Assembly (NCBI GenBank): GCA_001801025.1
Contig: MGWO01000007.1
Coordinates: forward strand, 372,001 to 436,000
DNA length: 64,000 nucleotides
Direction of reading: 5' to 3'
Source: Gallionellales bacterium GWA2_54_124
GTDB lineage: Bacteria > Pseudomonadota > Gammaproteobacteria > Burkholderiales > Gallionellaceae
The translations under genes were made by a program, and so were the position numbers. Under the pieces are notes generated by a model. It saw nothing but the letters and a program-made list of their open reading frames with translations. It did not search any database and was not told where the DNA came from. The first letter of the stretch is position 1, and each line of letters begins with the position of its first letter. Positions 1,103-52,311 of this stretch are shown piece by piece.

Positions 1103-2677
1103 TTAAGGACAACCTGTCGCTGTTCCCTTAACTACTGGCAACGACAGGTCTTCCTTTATGCAATAAACAACGTCATTGAAAGAGGTGCTGGCCGGGACGG
1201 AGGTGTTTTCAGTCTGATAGTTCTCGTACCCGGTAGGATGGACGGAATCAATGTTGGTGTTATTACGACCTTCTAGATAGGCAGAAATTAAGCTTTTGTC
1301 AGTGCGTATTTGACCGGCAAGTCTTTCGCCGGCGAATATGACTACGGCCGCGTAATTGCCTGAGTTGTTTACACTGACACAACGATGACCGATATTAATG
1401 GAGCAGGCGTTAGTGACGGAAGTTGTAGGCTGGTAATTTTCGCTAATGGCATAAAACAGATGCTCTTTCCAGTTGTACCACCAATGATAGATGCTCGCCC
1501 ACCCGCTCGCGCAGTATGCTGGTGAAGTAGGTGTTGCAGTTGGGTCGTCATCTTTCAGCAAAAAAATATCGGGTGATGTGCCGGAAATAGTGTTGCCTGT
1601 TTGTCCGCGAGCGGTATTGACCTTGTACGGAACACGCCCGGCTAAAAGGCCATCACTATCATTATATTTTGTGTTGTCGGTATAGTCTGAAATGGCAATC
1701 TGAGCCGGCCACGGCAAGCTTTTATTGGCGGCCATATTATTCGTTGTGGCATATTTTTTGATGCATTCAGCTGTGCTTCTGGTCATTGCGTCGAGGGTAT
1801 TGAGAAAGTCCCTGCGTTTTTTCATCGCGTTCCAGATATCCTGTTTTGTGATGAAAATCATCTGGTCGTTAACGGTTTGAATTATTTTGCCATTGGTATC
1901 ACGATCTTGATGCTGTTGAATAAATTTTCCTGTGGCAATGTCTGCGTTGTTGATTTTATGAGCGGTGTCATTATCCAAATAGCTGGCTGCTGTGTAATTG
2001 CCGCCGCAAGATGACGTGCCCGATATCACAGTATGACTTTGCCCTAAGGCTACACCGGGCGCGAAAATGACTGCCACCGCCTGATTGTCTGAGGGGGTCA
2101 GCAATAGAGTGCCATTTGTAGTGCCATTAGGGGTATAAACTCGTAGTACTCCATTGGTATCCCAATTCATCAAACCGGTTTTCGGATTGTTTTTATAATT
2201 GCCTGAAACCGCATACCAAAGGCATTCATTATCTCCTCCCCGTAATGGAGGAAGCTCAAGGGTTTTCCACGGTAGCTTACCGATCACACTGATATCTTTG
2301 GCGCCGCAAACACCTGCTGCTGCTCCTTCACCGCCGATGTCCGTCCCAGAGGTGTCAGGGCAGGGCAAATAGCCGTGCACTTCGCCGGGGTGAGTGTCTC
2401 CATAGGTAATCGCATATCCGATCAGCGCTTCTTTGGCCTGTGCGAGCGCGGCAGCGGTGATTTTGTCGCGGTCGATCTGGACGTTGTTGTTCAGCGCCTT
2501 GACGGTCACAGTGGCGGCAGTGGTTGCCAGTACCGTGATAAACAGCAAGAGTGCAAAACCTTGTTGTTTTGAGCGGATTTTCTTTGCTGAATTTCCACCG
2601 CACCCCGAATGGGGGAGTCGGGGGCTGAAATGACCTGCTACCAATTCCCGCTTTCCACTCTGCGTTTTTATGTTCAT
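1103..2677 (-). CDS. Large pseudopilin-like protein of the MSHA-like operon
   Basis: The 524-residue protein has a basic N-terminus followed by QQGFALLLFITVLATTAATV, which fits a prepilin-like signal (Gly-Phe junction and hydrophobic helix) but lacks the usual Glu at position 5. Residues about 85-115 contain AKEALIGYAITYGD and then LPCPD, the word it shares with the smaller pseudopilin downstream. The body is long, Asn/Thr-rich and holds many Cys, suggesting disulfides outside the cell. Its size is far above ordinary minor pilins (150-250 aa), so it may be an adhesin-like tip pilin; that is inference. The start ATG (2677) overlaps the stop of the upstream gene as ATGA. Confidence 0.7.
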   Translation of the reverse strand: MNIKTQSGKRELVAGHFSPRLPHSGCGGNSAKKIRSKQQGFALLLFITVLATTAATVTVKALNNNVQIDRDKITAAALAQAKEALIGYAITYGDTHPGEVHGYLPCPDTSGTDIGGEGAAAGVCGAKDISVIGKLPWKTLELPPLRGGDNECLWYAVSGNYKNNPKTGLMNWDTNGVLRVYTPNGTTNGTLLLTPSDNQAVAVIFAPGVALGQSHTVISGTSSCGGNYTAASYLDNDTAHKINNADIATGKFIQQHQDRDTNGKIIQTVNDQMIFITKQDIWNAMKKRRDFLNTLDAMTRSTAECIKKYATTNNMAANKSLPWPAQIAISDYTDNTKYNDSDGLLAGRVPYKVNTARGQTGNTISGTSPDIFLLKDDDPTATPTSPAYCASGWASIYHWWYNWKEHLFYAISENYQPTTSVTNACSINIGHRCVSVNNSGNYAAVVIFAGERLAGQIRTDKSLISAYLEGRNNTNIDSVHPTGYENYQTENTSVPASTSFNDVVYCIKEDLSLPVVKGTATGCP

Positions 2678-3039
2678 GGTTTTACCCGTACGGATTTTTC
2701 AGGCAGGCGCAAGGTCCGCTGACCTGAATTGATGTCGAGCGATTCGCCGACCTTGATGACTTTTCCTTCGATCAGGACGTGATCCGTATGAATAACCAGC
2801 GTCGGGATGACAGGGTCGGGCGGCACCTGTGTGGCGGCGTGCCCGTTGATCCATGCCACGCTTTTGCCAGCCGCGCGTAAGGTGATGCCGTTCAATGTGT
2901 AGATCGCTGTTTGTGCAATGCCGCTGCGTGCCGCGATCAGCGCTGCCCGTTCGGCCGGCGAATAAAACAAGGTGCCGAGCGTCTCCGCCTGCGCCGTGCC
3001 GAAAAGTAGCAACATATTGATGAATAATATTTTTCTCAT
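2674..3039 (-). CDS. mshK: MshK-like small exported pilus assembly protein
   Basis: It is about 121 residues with an N-terminal signal peptide (MRKILFINMLLLFGTAQA). The mature part holds a short segment reading YTLNGITLRAAGKSVAWING and then VIKVGESLDI, the pattern of small periplasmic GspB/MshK-type proteins that couple assembly platform and secretin. I chose the ATG at 3039 because GGGGAG lies at good distance upstream; the longer open frame to 3066 is translated heptad-repeat DNA (see the repeat at 3044-3078). Position between MshJ-like and pseudopilin genes supports the assignment, but sequence similarity alone is weak. Confidence 0.6.
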   Translation of the reverse strand: MRKILFINMLLLFGTAQAETLGTLFYSPAERAALIAARSGIAQTAIYTLNGITLRAAGKSVAWINGHAATQVPPDPVIPTLVIHTDHVLIEGKVIKVGESLDINSGQRTLRLPEKSVRVKP

Positions 3040-3043
3040 GATT

Positions 3044-3078
3044 TCTCCCCACTCCCCACTCCCCACTTACCACTTACG
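3044..3078. repeat. Heptad-phased tandem repeat between mshJ and mshK
   Basis: Five consecutive 7-bp units (TCTCCCC, ACTCCCC twice, ACTTACC, ACTTACG) run without phase break. The last unit contains the stop codon of the mshJ-like gene, and on the minus strand the first units give the purine-rich ribosome binding site of the mshK-like gene. The same style of heptad appears in the hairpin spacers at 17986, 25924, 30317 and 52226. Confidence 0.8.
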
Positions 3079-3667
3079 GTTTTAAAGGCAGTGAATAAAC
3101 CTGCACGGTGCATTTAATTTGCAGGCCGGCCAGCACTTCCGCTTCACGCGCTATCTGGCACGTCTCCACGCGGTAGGGGGTTTTCCAGTCAGCTTTAAGT
3201 TTATTCATAAAATCAATCAGTTCAATTTCATGTATGCCGGCGATTTCCAGCGCAAGATCGTGGTGAGAGACGTTGTTCTGATAGCTGAGAGGCGAGTCGG
3301 GCAGTTGCGGATTGATTGGCTGAGGTGGGGCGAGCGTGTAGCGCAGTGTGGGCGGCAGGCGCGTGTCGCGGTAAATACTGTCCAGACGCTGCACCCAGCC
3401 ATCGCGATCCGGCTCGCCGATGAAACCCAGTTCACTGAGTTTTTTGTATTTCGCGGCGAGCTTTTTGATGCTGTCCAGATCAAAGGTCAGTTTCCTGATT
3501 TCCTCGCGCGTGTCAGATAAGCGCTTCTCGGTCGTCAGGATGCGCTGCGCTTTTTCGATGCGATAACGATCGAGGCCGGCGATGACAATAAAGGTCAGGA
3601 TGACGGACAGCGCAAACAGAATCAGCGCGACTCGGGCAGGTTTGAGAACGATACCGTAGGCGCTCAT
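3074..3667 (-). CDS. mshJ: MshJ/PilO-like pilus assembly protein
   Basis: The 197-residue protein has one N-terminal membrane helix (ARVALILFALSVILTFIVIAG), then a coiled-coil stretch of about 45 residues rich in Lys/Glu/Arg, then a small periplasmic domain. This is the architecture of PilO/GspM/MshJ, which link the cytoplasmic actin-like protein to the secretin. The ATG at 3667 overlaps the stop of the MshI-like gene (ATGA); a longer frame to 3715 lies inside that gene and is not needed. The stop codon falls in a heptad repeat. Confidence 0.7.
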   Translation of the reverse strand: MSAYGIVLKPARVALILFALSVILTFIVIAGLDRYRIEKAQRILTTEKRLSDTREEIRKLTFDLDSIKKLAAKYKKLSELGFIGEPDRDGWVQRLDSIYRDTRLPPTLRYTLAPPQPINPQLPDSPLSYQNNVSHHDLALEIAGIHEIELIDFMNKLKADWKTPYRVETCQIAREAEVLAGLQIKCTVQVYSLPLKP

Positions 3668-5157
3668 GGCAGCTCCCGGGTTTGTAGGGCGCGCCAGGGA
3701 ATGCTCATGCACCACAGATTTTCAGTCTGGGTGCTGTCCATGCCAAAGCCGCCCTTGAGCGTGTTGATCAAAGAGAAGGCGGCCGGATCCTGCATCAACT
3801 GCACGCCATCGCGCGCTTTAAGTGAGGTTGAAATGCGCTTTTTGATTTCTATTTGCGCTTCAGGAGAGAGCGTCTCCGTCAGTAAAATTGAAAACTGCAA
3901 TTCGGTATAGCGCGGCGGGGTGTCTTCTGTCTCATCTGTGACCGCAGGCGTGCTGCCGCCTGTTGAGAGATCGATTTTACGTTTGAGCAACGGCACTTCA
4001 ATCACGGTTTGCCCCTGACAGTAGCGCTCGCCGGATTTTGGAAAACGGTAGCTTAAGGTTTTGATGCGCACCTGCGGCAAACTGGCAATCGCACCGGCGG
4101 TAAATTGCAGTAGGGATTCAGGTGAGGGAGAGGCGTCGAGCTCCAGTGCCGAAAAACGGGTCGCCTGTCGTACCAGTGCGGGATCCATTCCGGTTGCGCT
4201 GATGCGGGCGGCGAGTTGTTCGCGCTCATCGGTCGCTTTTTGCAGGTCGCGGCTCAACGTCTGCTCGCGCCCGAACAGGTCGATGAGGGTGCGAAAATTG
4301 GCCTGCCCGAATACGATAACCGCCAGCAGGCTAAGTCCCATGCCGGCATAGGCTGCATGGCGCAGATTTTTCGCCAGATGACTCGCGCGCAATTGCAGCG
4401 GAGCCAGTTGACCGCGCGGGGAGGTGGCTGCCAGCTCGAACAAGGGGTGCAGATAGGCGGCATCCCCTTTGGGGGACAACTGATCCGGCAGCGGCATCAG
4501 GGTGAGTCCGGCACGGGTAAGATAGCTTTCGATCGAACGTGTGTCGGCTAAATACAGTACGGGAGGCATCGCCTCGCGTTCAAAAAAACGCTTATTTTCA
4601 AGATGTTGTCGGGTGCGCAATATCTCGTTGGCGTCGCTGTCATTCTCGTGATCGCTGTCTTCACTGTAGCGATGGACGCAGCGCGTGAGTACCGGAATGC
4701 CGTCTTGGAGCACCACGATGCGCAGAAAATGTACGCTGGGCATCGCCAGTATCACATCTTTGATGGACAGGTGGCGTGTCATCAGGGTGAGCAGCAGTGA
4801 GATGCCCCAGACTCCGGCGATGGTCATGTCGTGCTTTTCAAGTTCGCTGGTGACCGCTTCTGCTGTCGTTAAGCCGTTGAGCGCTGCAGTCACGGGGTTG
4901 AGCCAGTTGCCGTTGAGGACGGCCGCGGCGCAATACTGGCTGTGCGGGAAGGCGGCGGCCAGACGTCTCGCAATAAAACTGCTGCGGTCGCGCCCGAACA
5001 GCATCGGCAGTTTAAAGGTGTCCAGCGTTTCTTCAGGCAGATTGGCGATCACCCAGAGGCGATCGCTGTGATCCGGCTTGTCGATAGAATGCCAAACGCC
5101 GTTTTCGCGTCTGAAGTAGCGCGGACCTGATGAATTGATAAACAGGACGGTTTTCAT
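3664..5157 (-). CDS. mshI: MshI-like (PilM/PilN fusion type) biogenesis protein
   Basis: The 497-residue protein has a cytoplasmic N-terminal half of about 270 residues resembling the degenerate actin-like fold of PilM/GspL. One transmembrane helix follows at about 275-295 (AAYAGMGLSLLAVIVFGQANF), then a coiled coil (GREQTLSRDLQKATDEREQL) and a PilN-like periplasmic domain. MshI combines these parts in other MSHA systems, although it is usually nearer 300 residues, so this one is long. It would bridge the MshE ATPase and the periplasmic MshJ/MshL. Start and stop both overlap neighbours by ATGA, indicating translational coupling. Confidence 0.65.
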   Translation of the reverse strand: MKTVLFINSSGPRYFRRENGVWHSIDKPDHSDRLWVIANLPEETLDTFKLPMLFGRDRSSFIARRLAAAFPHSQYCAAAVLNGNWLNPVTAALNGLTTAEAVTSELEKHDMTIAGVWGISLLLTLMTRHLSIKDVILAMPSVHFLRIVVLQDGIPVLTRCVHRYSEDSDHENDSDANEILRTRQHLENKRFFEREAMPPVLYLADTRSIESYLTRAGLTLMPLPDQLSPKGDAAYLHPLFELAATSPRGQLAPLQLRASHLAKNLRHAAYAGMGLSLLAVIVFGQANFRTLIDLFGREQTLSRDLQKATDEREQLAARISATGMDPALVRQATRFSALELDASPSPESLLQFTAGAIASLPQVRIKTLSYRFPKSGERYCQGQTVIEVPLLKRKIDLSTGGSTPAVTDETEDTPPRYTELQFSILLTETLSPEAQIEIKKRISTSLKARDGVQLMQDPAAFSLINTLKGGFGMDSTQTENLWCMSIPWRALQTRELP

Positions 5158-16971: not shown

Positions 16972-17982
16972 ATGAGTTCATTATCGAAACGTGTTGTGCT
17001 TCTTGTTTTATTGTCGGCTGTCGCCGGATGTTCTACGATCAAAGATGCAAAAAATACCGTAGGTGAGTGGTTGGGAGGCGGTAGCGGTACGATTGAAACT
17101 GCCAAAATTGTAGCGCCGGTCAGCACGCCTGGACTTAAGTACGGTGCTACCCTGCGCGTGCTTAACTATGTCGATCAGCGTAAAGTCAGCAATCCGCGCT
17201 ATCTCGGTCAAATGACCACGCAGGTCGGCGGCATGAGCGGCAAGGAATTAATTCTCGATCAGGATGTCGCCACCCTTGCCACAGCTGCAATAAAGCGCCG
17301 TTTCGATGCGGAAGGTTTTCAGGTTATGGAAGGCTCAAGTGCCGCGAATGCCATCTTTGAGGTCACGGGTGTTGTGAAAGAATTAACACTCAACGTTAAG
17401 GAACGCGATGATGTCACGATTGCGATCGAGACGACAGTGAAGGAAGTTGCAACCAGCAAAGTGATCTGGTCTGGGCTGGTCAACGAGAAACACAACCGTT
17501 TTGCAGGGGTGTCCGGCAATAATAAAGACGATGTGATGGCTTATTTGAACAGGGAATTAAAGGTTGCCAGTACCAAGACGGTTGAGGCCATTAGTTCATC
17601 CCTGATGGCGGGGCGTCCGGACCTATTTAATCTGACGCCCGGCAGTAAGCCGGTTCCCGGTGTGACGGTTTATGTTGCGCCATCCTTGTCTAAGGCCGCT
17701 CCTGTATCCTCTACCATGCAGAGCGTGCAGGGCGATGTACAGCCTTCGACGTACCGCCCGCATGCCAGTGAAGCGAATGGTTTGTTGCTGGTGAATACCA
17801 ATCCGCCGCGCGCCAAGGTGTATCTCGATGGCGTGTATTACGGTATGTCACCGTTGCGTCTGGAGATGGAGCCTGGCATTCATGCGATCAGCGTGAAACT
17901 TGCGGGCTACAATATGGTGACTGAAAAGGTGTCTGTACGGCGCGGTGATAACACCGAAATCGAACTGAATCTGGAACACTAA
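16972..17982 (+). CDS. Outer-membrane lipoprotein with C-terminal PEGA domain
   Basis: The 336-residue protein has a lipoprotein signal with lipobox SAVAGC (Cys20). The middle (about 55-220) is an alpha/beta domain of the kind found in YajG/CsgG-like lipoproteins (ATLRVLNYVDQRKVSNPRY; ATAAIKRRFDAEGFQVM); the exact family is uncertain. The last 70 residues form a PEGA motif (GLLLVNTNPPRAKVYLDG then SPLRLEMEPGIHAISVKLAG), a surface beta-domain often linked to S-layer or envelope proteins. Role is probably envelope structure or trafficking. The gene stands alone with a strong terminator after it. Confidence 0.75.
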   Translation: MSSLSKRVVLLVLLSAVAGCSTIKDAKNTVGEWLGGGSGTIETAKIVAPVSTPGLKYGATLRVLNYVDQRKVSNPRYLGQMTTQVGGMSGKELILDQDVATLATAAIKRRFDAEGFQVMEGSSAANAIFEVTGVVKELTLNVKERDDVTIAIETTVKEVATSKVIWSGLVNEKHNRFAGVSGNNKDDVMAYLNRELKVASTKTVEAISSSLMAGRPDLFNLTPGSKPVPGVTVYVAPSLSKAAPVSSTMQSVQGDVQPSTYRPHASEANGLLLVNTNPPRAKVYLDGVYYGMSPLRLEMEPGIHAISVKLAGYNMVTEKVSVRRGDNTEIELNLEH

Positions 17983-17985
17983 AGG

Positions 17986-18058
17986 CAGTGAGTAGTGAGT
18001 CGTAAGTTAAAAAACCCGCTTCGGCAGGTTTTTTTATTGCATCACTTACGGCTCTCCG
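17986..18058. repeat. Heptad-phased inverted repeat flanking the terminator
   Basis: Left units CAGTGAG, TAGTGAG and TCGTAAG (17986-18006) face right units CTTACGG and CTCTCCG (18045-18058). GAGTCGTAAGT at 17997-18007 pairs with ACTTACGGCTC at 18044-18054 with one wobble. The intrinsic terminator sits in the loop. Confidence 0.7.
18008..18037. terminator. Bidirectional intrinsic terminator between PEGA lipoprotein gene and dut
   Basis: A-run, stem AACCCGC, TTCG loop, GCAGGTT (one mismatch), then seven T. It serves both convergent genes. Confidence 0.85.
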
Positions 18059-24872: not shown

Positions 24873-25943
24873 ATGCGTACCGATGAATTTGATTTTGTCT
24901 TGCCGGAGGGCTTGATTGCGCAGCATCCGCCCGAAAAACGCGGTGCAAGCCGGCTGTTGTGTGTGCACGACGGTATTTTAGAAGATAGCCAGTTTGTTGA
25001 TTTATTACAGAAGGTTGCGCCGGGAGATTTGCTGGTATTGAACGATACGCGGGTGATTCGTGCACGCCTGTTCGGTATTAAGCGTAGCGGTGGCAAGATC
25101 GAGGTGATGGTCGAACGCGTGTTGAACAGTCACGAGGTGCTGGCACAAGTGCGCGCCAGTAAATCGCCGCCAGCGGGCAGCTATCTGCTTTTGTCGACGG
25201 ACGGTGCGCCGCAAGAGGGGAGCGCACCCGATGCGGGCTTGAGTGTTGAAGTGCTGGGGAGAGCTGGCGAATTTTATCATTTACGCTTTTGCGCTGAAGA
25301 GCCTGTGCTGGAACTGCTGGAGCGTTACGGGCGTCTGCCACTGCCGCCTTATATAACGCACGCAGCCGAAGAGGAAGACGAGACGCGCTATCAAACCGTG
25401 TTTGCGCGGCAATCGGGCGCGGTGGCAGCGCCCACGGCAGGCCTGCATTTTGATGACGCGATGCTGCAAGCCTTGCAGGATAAAGGCGTAAAAATTGCGT
25501 ATGTGACTTTGCATGTCGGGGCGGGTACGTTTCAGCCAGTGCGCGCCGAATGGTTGTCGGAGCATGTCATGCACAGTGAGTGTTACCAGATTTCGCAGGC
25601 GACGGTGGATGCGATTGAGCAGACACATGAAGCAGGCGGGCGGGTCGTCGCGGTGGGAACCACCAGTTTGCGCGCGCTTGAGAGCGCTGCGGCGTCAGGT
25701 GAATTGCAATCGGGTGCAGGTGAGACGCGGATTTTTATCACGCCGGGCTATCGTTTTCGGGTGGTGGATGTCTTGCTGACCAATTTTCACCTGCCAAAAT
25801 CGACGCTGCTGATGCTGGTGAGCGCATTCGGCGGTATGAACGAAATGCGGGCGGCTTATCTTCATGCGGTGGCGCAGCAGTATCGCTTTTTCAGTTATGG
25901 CGATGCGATGCTGATCGAAAAATCGGTAAGTAGTGAGTCGTGA
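24873..25943 (+). CDS. queA: S-adenosylmethionine:tRNA ribosyltransferase-isomerase
   Basis: The 356-residue protein begins [20 protein letters not shown], the canonical QueA start. Conserved stretches [25 protein letters not shown] and [19 protein letters not shown] are present. It adds the epoxycyclopentane ring to preQ1 in tRNA, the penultimate queuosine step. The ATG at 24873 follows an in-frame TTG. The last codons and the stop (GAG TCG TGA) are made of heptad repeat units. tgt follows 77 bases later. Confidence 0.97.
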
Positions 25944-25980
25944 GTGGATGCTGGCTTTTACTTTTCACTTGTAACTTACA
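25924..25980. repeat. Heptad-phased inverted repeat over the queA stop codon
   Basis: Left units CGGTAAG, TAGTGAG and TCGTGAG run through the queA 3' end; right units ACTTTTC, ACTTGTA and ACTTACA follow. GTAAGT at 25926 pairs with ACTTAC at 25974. Units match those at 17986 and 3044. Confidence 0.75.
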
Positions 25981-52235: not shown

Positions 52236-52305
52236 TGAAGTAGGATTGAGGATCAAGTAAAACTGCGCTCTGTTTTTCACTCAATCCTCAATCCTCAATC
52301 CTGCA
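52226..52305. repeat. Heptad-phased hairpin over the folE2 stop codon
   Basis: Right arm is three tandem TCAATCC units (52281-52301). Left arm has AGCAGGA, TTGATGA, AGTAGGA, TTGAGGA. GCAGGATTGA pairs with TCAATCCTGC and AGGATTGAGGAT with ATCCTCAATCCT, giving a near-complete long stem. Confidence 0.85.
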
Positions 52306-52311
52306 TCTGAT

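Follow-up and report, generated by a model that had tools for sequence, protein, structure and literature searches.

The window analysed here, meaning the whole 64,000-nucleotide stretch of DNA, carries at positions 3044-3078 five 7-bp units in phase, which read TCTCCCC ACTCCCC ACTCCCC ACTTACC ACTTACG on the plus strand and CGTAAGT GGTAAGT GGGGAGT GGGGAGT GGGGAGA on the minus strand, which is the coding strand of the msh genes. Both the sequence and the autocorrelation at lag 7 bear out the preliminary description of these units; the segment has the top lag-7 score in the window (21.0), and one other segment, at 52280-52302, scores at least 12. The array is a lone heptad arm on the minus strand, with no inverted partner beside it. 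It lies between an mshJ-like gene (3074-3715, minus; 213 amino acids from the first possible start) and an mshK-like gene (2674-3039, minus; 121 amino acids). The mshJ-like protein ends in SLPLKP, and the TAA stop codon of its gene (3074-3076, minus) is within the first unit, CGTAAGT. Five bases 5' of the mshK-like ATG (3039-3037) is a Shine-Dalgarno-like GGGGAG (3045-3050, minus), which is also part of the array. It had been proposed that the repeat supplies both the stop codon of mshJ and the ribosome binding site of mshK, and in this species both are indeed drawn from it. The two gene names are positional only, as they rest on neighbours that match T2SSE plus MshEN (an MshE-like ATPase) and T2SSF; MshJ and MshK had zero matches to Pfam and NCBIfam models. 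The arm contains three GGGG runs and otherwise GG pairs. G-quadruplexes seem unlikely as a general cause, since most units in the fetched arrays have GG only. A separate observation is a match to a Y1 transposase (PF01797) near the msh cluster, some 3.3 kb before position 1 of the window (G000:C7:368380-368706, G000 being this genome).

We compared the mshJ junction in the best 12 of 35 genomes with an MshJ match, where clear orthologues have E <1e-39; the 23 weaker matches were left out of the scoring, and several of the 18 of these for which the junction was extracted are in the other orientation. Among the best 12, seven genomes have same-strand heptad arrays at the mshJ end, and the units differ: GGTAAGT/GGGGAGT in this genome, GTTAGTC in G084, GTTAGTC with ATTAGTT and GGTAGTT in G066, GGAGTGG and GAAGTGG in G067, GGAGTGG in the congener (G048), AAAGTGG in G061 and TGAGTGG in G087. 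As judged by eye, G060 has a fragment at most, G070 has other sequence, and heptads are absent from the junction in G012, G062 and G020. In relatives with both an array and a visible mshK start, the Shine-Dalgarno-like stretch lies outside the array, again by eye. The stop codon and Shine-Dalgarno sequence are best explained as side effects of where the arm is placed, without a conserved regulatory role.

Recurrence of the same words had been reported at 17986, 25924 and 30317. Arrays do lie at the first two places, but the third is not an array. Three AGT units occupy 17987-18007 (plus), 4 bp past the stop of the gene at 16972-17982, and behind them a GC hairpin and its T run resemble, by eye, a terminator. 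The second place is a hairpin, with a G-rich arm of three GT units at 25925-25945 (plus), inside which the gene at 24873-25943 terminates, and an arm of three AC units at 25960-25980 (plus); the orthologous spacer of G048 (L317) has long heptad arms too. A hairpin of another heptad family, GGATTGA...(TCAATCC)3, is at 52240-52302 (plus), with a predicted fold of -23.8 kcal/mol over 52240-52310. Its orthologous spacer in G048 (L208) is below the heptad threshold and has GGGAAGG-like units by eye. As a bare word, ACTTACC is found at 9 places in the window, where 2.26 are expected, and only two of the 9 are in arrays.

A comparison of lag-7 autocorrelation in intergenic DNA with shuffled controls had been named beforehand as a check on the idea of a dispersed family. 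We ran it on 464 kb of this genome (2,904,277 bases, 14 contigs), namely the window and twenty evenly spaced stretches, and on 360 kb of G048, and the claim survived. Intergenic lag-7 segments number 12 in G000, against a shuffled mean of 0.4 and a maximum of 2 in 20 shuffles, and 25 in the 360 kb of G048, also against 0.4. In a heptad-poor relative, G044, there are 3 against 0.4, no more than at lags 6 and 12. In spacers of G000 the other lags gave 6 segments (lag 14), 5 (lag 11) and 0-2 (remaining lags from 4 to 13); in G048 lag 14 gave 14 segments, and none of the other lags below 14 exceeded 4. An earlier count with a threshold of 10 agrees, with 9, 21 and 3 intergenic segments in G000, G048 and G044. 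At that threshold genic segments number 2 in G000, so the signal there is mainly between genes, and 18 in G048, some of which are perhaps miscalled spacers; eight genic segments of G048 scoring at least 12 sit at least 90 nt within called genes. Genes were called by a simple in-house script, so distances to gene edges are approximate.

Pattern counts extend the comparison. Exact matches to the three-unit pattern ACTYMCNACTYMCNACTYMC number 34 in this genome, against 2 for the backward pattern; allowing up to two mismatches raises these counts to 123 and 19, with long arrays matching repeatedly. The strict pattern is matched in 8 of 60 family genomes, this one included, and a looser ACT pattern has from 0 to 324 matches in 15 genomes. 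The backward pattern is an unclean null in heptad-rich relatives (for the ACT pattern, 129 against 126 in G048 and 0 against 53 in G012); we take its matches to be other heptad families, which are seen in G048. A GGATTC-type family has 6 matches in this genome and 144 in G048. Together, the lag comparison and the pattern counts point to an excess that is specific to period 7 and lacking in some relatives.

Array stretches were picked among the listed places with up to two mismatches, four of which were left out of the fetched DNA. In the 620,634 bases of G000 that were fetched, many in stretches chosen for their arrays, there are 50 distinct array places, and the dispersed, heptad-phased and often hairpin-forming family that had been suggested is thus present. 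Chance was rejected, as 70 ACT array rows (two of them second phases of another row) compare with 1-9 in ten local shuffles of a set that includes the array-chosen stretches. A different reading is that these are ordinary spacer microsatellites, with slippage favouring 7 bp and arrays surviving in spacers only as genes purge frameshifts. It is in keeping with the period-7 excess in spacers, while multiples of 3 are prominent among the lags in genes, and 7 nt is perhaps the length that contacts the polymerase, an idea relayed in PMC4679880. However, without a palindromic element it does not predict the G-first inverted pairs and in-frame enzyme hairpins described below. It is already disfavoured, and we consider it quite improbable.

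In a complete element the G-rich heptad arm comes first and is separated from the C-rich one by a loop, mostly of 8 to 30 bases; single arms are common. The unit consensus is GGTRAGT, in which the second G and AGT are nearly constant; because detection requires AGT, only the second G counts as an independent observation. Inverted partners within 60 bp accompany 43 of the 70 ACT arrays in G000 (28 distinct hairpins) and 35 of 56 arrays (38 places) in G048 (21 distinct hairpins), where about 2% would be expected from array density. All 78 of these partnered arrays, in 49 hairpins, have the G-rich (AGT) arm first, and their arms are variable and unequal. Non-AGT families follow the same order, with G-first and C-first counts of 2 and 0 in G000, 8 and 0 in G048 and 2 and 0 in G044. 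In named loci from many phyla (at least 118), the paired arrays among the matches listed are 43 G-first against 4, with 199 of 246 arrays unpaired, and the non-AGT families, again among matches listed, are 9 G-first to 2. The G strand also tends to lead away from the gene edge: in G000, 46 of 52 spacer arrays have it so and 6 are opposite (median distance 4.5 bp), and in G048 the counts are 36 and 11 of 48, with one tie (median 6.5 bp). For lone arms the G end is at the gene edge in 25 against 2 cases in G000 and, less strictly, in 15 against 8 in G048. An effect of start or stop codons on the G-first order is disfavoured, because pairs inside the LeuRS, PdxA and MurB genes are also G-first (17 pairs in 15 gene rows, none C-first).

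Predicted hairpins are more stable than shuffles, at -22.3 versus -11.4 kcal/mol in G000 and -32.8 versus -18.3 in G048, but 3' arms exchanged between loci fold equally well (-22.0 and -34.8). Pairing between the arms of one locus does not significantly exceed pairing between loci in G000 (0.699 versus 0.670, reached by 53 of 500 shuffles) or in G048 (0.736 versus 0.703, 45 of 500), and we therefore rejected the idea that the hairpin is kept by base pairing. Mixed named taxa gave 0.636 versus 0.528 (0 of 500), which says little as species are mixed. By eye the two arms of a hairpin look like one family, and yet in the AGT family they show no clear pairing excess, which suggests a common beginning followed by divergence. 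Likeness among units is 0.59-0.74 within one array and 0.42-0.46 between different arrays. A greater likeness of neighbouring units, the mark that slippage should leave, is clear in G048 (0 of 300 shuffles) and weak in G000 (23 of 300), where non-adjacent units (0.620) are slightly more alike than adjacent ones (0.593).

The preliminary description had the family spreading into gene ends. A recent spread is not borne out by the comparison, in which array spacers are mostly common to G000 and its congener and it is their units that differ. Among evenly spaced orthologous spacers, ACT arrays are in both genomes in 3 cases, in G000 only in 1, in G048 only in 2 and in neither in 26, i.e., a G048 array in 3 of 4 versus 2 of 28 (Fisher p 0.008). 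When array-chosen loci are added, the counts become 12, 2, 4 and 50 (12 of 14 versus 4 of 54); 10 of these 14 G000 spacers were chosen for arrays and 4 were unselected, with repeated target places counted once. For heptads of any kind the evenly spaced counts are 4, 3, 2 and 23 (4 of 7 versus 2 of 25, p 0.012), and with array-chosen loci 14, 4, 4 and 46 (14 of 18 versus 4 of 50). Array-bearing spacers common to both genomes carry changed units. Some show one arm almost the same in both and the other grown. In the L284/L318 spacer, for example, the G arm starts alike, and the AC arm has about three units in one species, whereas the other species has six ACTTACC and a further unit. The spacer before a gene with a MKKIVILISGRGSNMQ start, which we take to be purN-like, has a hairpin in G000 (L289), in G048 (L310) and in the metagenome bin FK4.bin2 (L127). 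No close empty site that could reveal a target duplication was found in this comparison.

Between species, the anchor positions (the second G and AGT) agree at 0.88-0.94, other array positions at 0.66-0.78 and positions outside arrays at 0.81-0.82. This bears on the possibility that the arrays are functional sites, acting in operon mRNA (through hairpin stability, CsrA or S1) or read by a protein that recognizes GnnAGT every 7 bp. Better conservation of the anchors than of the remaining positions is what such a role would give, as are folds stronger than those of shuffles and arrays within a few bases of gene ends. However, the alignment itself may favour the anchors, swapped 3' arms fold as well and the arms lack clear covariation. 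Moreover, the mshJ units vary among species and are missing in some, and the copies inside genes have no obvious operon role. We regard functional sites as an improbable account.

The family is not limited to gene ends, because copies also occur in frame inside enzymes, as heptad hairpins in MurB, PdxA, LeuRS and MutL. Seven long open frames of G000 carry ACT arrays in frame; by Pfam names they are an Eco57I-type methylase, LeuRS, an AAA_33 protein, PdxA, MutL, an NAD-dependent epimerase and a MurB-Ddl protein. We sought four of the seven in 13 relatives (rows representing 13 species; G020 was dropped from the PdxA and MurB counts for a wrong frame, and LeuRS of G070 was not used), and judged heptad types and arm likeness at the enzyme loops by eye. 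The MurB loop after YEIGYRSV has a lag-7 segment in 10 of 13 rows, with four heptad types: AGT (G000, G087, G067, G059 and G070), GGATCGA/GGATTGA (G084 and G066), GTGAAAC (G061) and GGGAAGA (G012 and G048). The loop is empty in G044, and the inserts of G060 and G062 show no clear heptads. Solved MurB structures are shorter between the aligned stretches (6 residues in 1hsk versus 27 here; 12 in 3tx1 versus 33), and solved PdxA relatives are likewise shorter at the heptad loop. In PdxA, 7 of 13 rows have a heptad segment at one loop, and two more are visible by eye below threshold; the type is AGT, except for GGGAAGA in G066. The site is short in G060 and empty in G012, G044 and G062.

LeuRS has a segment at site A in 5 of 13 rows, of two types, and at site B in 2 of 13, with three further rows having the same allele. 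Since flanking codons at these sites differ between species too, exchange between species is possible. In the epimerase, a heptad segment is found only in G000 and G048 among the 7 rows aligned, and the types differ. In G000 (L301:713-2662, minus), G087 and G084 (L350, L351), murB and ddl form one open frame of about 650-740 amino acids, and the joint holds GGATTGA-type units; the MurB frame stops short of ddl in nine further rows. As the fusion runs through a heptad-like stretch in three species, the repeats may remodel and join proteins.

Such insertions raise the possibility of mobile palindromes of the MITE or Rickettsia palindromic element (RPE) type, in which a transposase acting in trans would insert each hairpin as a whole, the heptads being its degenerate ends. 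The palindromic shape, the single fixed orientation, the dispersed copies and the insertions in both spacers and coding frames would all fit, and RPEs are described as inserting in frame at an unusually high frequency (PMC10969869). However, the loops of the fetched arrays have no common core by eye, and sites are shared more than recent jumping would lead one to expect. Moreover, two candidate motors were rejected, because neither is associated with heptad content among 17 genomes. The Y1 transposase (PF01797) is in 14 of the 17, and is absent from G060 (24 ACT matches), G028 (7) and G044 (0) and present in G062 and G020, which have 0 ACT matches each. Reverse transcriptase (PF00078) is in 8 of 17 and absent from the heptad-rich G000, G048 and G061. 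Mobile palindromes seem to us rather unlikely.

What we observe is period 7, G-first geometry, sharing of sites, units that differ in sequence and number between species at one site, and insertions in frame. The explanation that we favour, with about even confidence, is that palindromic heptad elements are passed on at fixed sites while slippage renews their units, and that the array at 3044-3078 is one arm of such an element, perhaps a survivor. Inheritance would be at operon spacers, gene ends and some enzyme loops. A first seeding might have occurred by insertion or copying of a hairpin, after which units would be gained, lost and homogenised by slippage in 7-bp steps, one arm at a time; losses at mshJ could then have left the single arm. 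Slippage in sevens explains the change in length and the likeness within arrays, but not the strict strand order, which is a constraint that any mechanism must meet. Conservation of the anchors could reflect selection for the motif, and this counts against the slippage reading. For one MurB loop to hold several heptad families, both arms would have to drift jointly, or there would have to be replacement or exchange between species. Because the families are few substitutions apart, drift in place, interspecies exchange and fresh insertion are all possible. A further mechanism, which we consider very improbable, is that both 3' ends at a break gain G-rich 7-nt repeats, like telomeres, and join, and that the hairpin later breaks again where it did before and is rebuilt with other units. 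If true, it would explain period 7 whatever the letters, a G strand that runs from flank to centre on both sides in spacers and genes alike, the lack of clear covariation of the arms, their growth one at a time and the differing families at one site.

The STRR of filamentous cyanobacteria are, by description, tandem heptanucleotides, as are the arrays described here. The view that variable-unit heptads would be unusual outside cyanobacteria does not hold, given the GGGNATC repeats of Xanthomonas and the heptamers common in surveyed genomes (PMC4692102, PMC4679880). The former source describes G-rich heptads, GGGNATC or GGGGA(C/T)T, in Xanthomonas and Nostoc. Their arrays, for which four units is the commonest length, are found on the coding strand no more than 50 bp from stop codons or, on the opposite strand, upstream of ORFs; some overlap stop codons, some are inverted pairs, and three heptanucleotides in Calothrix are mentioned (PMC4692102). 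The latter relays that heptanucleotides are the most abundant class in most surveyed genomes and that four Burkholderia are among the ten genomes richest in 5-11-nt repeats (PMC4679880). It also reports intergenic, gene-adjacent direct repeats of TAACTGA in Beggiatoaceae, patchy among taxa, as well as indels in 7-nt increments between close strains and a mixture with other heptamers in Microcystis (PMC4679880).

Our arrays share with the Xanthomonas and Nostoc repeats the position rule, the overlap with stop codons and some inverted pairs. They differ in their units, which are GGTRAGT (at mshJ GGTAAGT/GGGGAGT) and further families rather than GGGNATC. Also unlike those repeats, in so far as PMC4692102 describes them, inverted pairs are common here, there are in-frame copies in enzymes, and units change at orthologous sites. 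Similarly, the 7-mers here are, like TAACTGA, intergenic, beside genes and patchy among taxa, but TAACTGA is one fixed unit, mostly just upstream of starts in the main genome and suggested to mark regulator sites (PMC4679880). Palindromes in frame in metabolic genes are shared with the Rickettsia palindromic elements, but RPEs are sequence families of about 150 bp that encode a conserved peptide (PMC10969869), whereas the elements here have in common only period 7 and a G-rich first arm, with four types in the MurB loop alone. The heptamer class is already known (PMC4692102, PMC4679880, and through them a 2007 survey of long repeats), as are the position rule for G-rich heptads and stop-codon overlap (PMC4692102). 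What goes beyond this is the G-first pairing, the lack of clear arm covariation, the shared sites with changed units, the varied mshJ heptads and the in-frame enzyme hairpins. We found no paper on in-frame heptad hairpins or on heptads combined with an RPE-like habit, in a search that mostly lay outside the subscription literature. Heptamer repeats are over-represented in bacteria (PMC4692102, PMC4679880), and the sources consulted give no settled cause. One genus here combines conserved sites with changing units, strict strand geometry and natural in-frame inserts in the essential enzymes MurB, PdxA and LeuRS.

Some smaller observations concern the coding sequences. A third LeuRS site, at about residues 585-680 (L345-L348), has differing palindrome-like inserts in four species, and in G048 it contains CCCTCCCCTTGAAGGGGAGGG with a GTCGCACTTCGTGCGGC hairpin. 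The epimerase gene has, next to its heptads, a second stretch (L282, about 2066-2130) that encodes approximately TMFLGEDSCGL; in G059 and G067 short pieces matching it lie on several contigs, and it is perhaps another dispersed element that inserts in frame. The MutL linker of G000 (L281:772-2688) has both GGATTCA-type and AGT-type heptads, and a mismatch-repair gene is thus itself altered by the repeats. Finally, in the gene before an mraY-like gene (L302/L306), presumably murF-like, the frame seems by eye to traverse a whole heptad hairpin in two species, in which case the repeat would supply the C-terminal tail of the protein.
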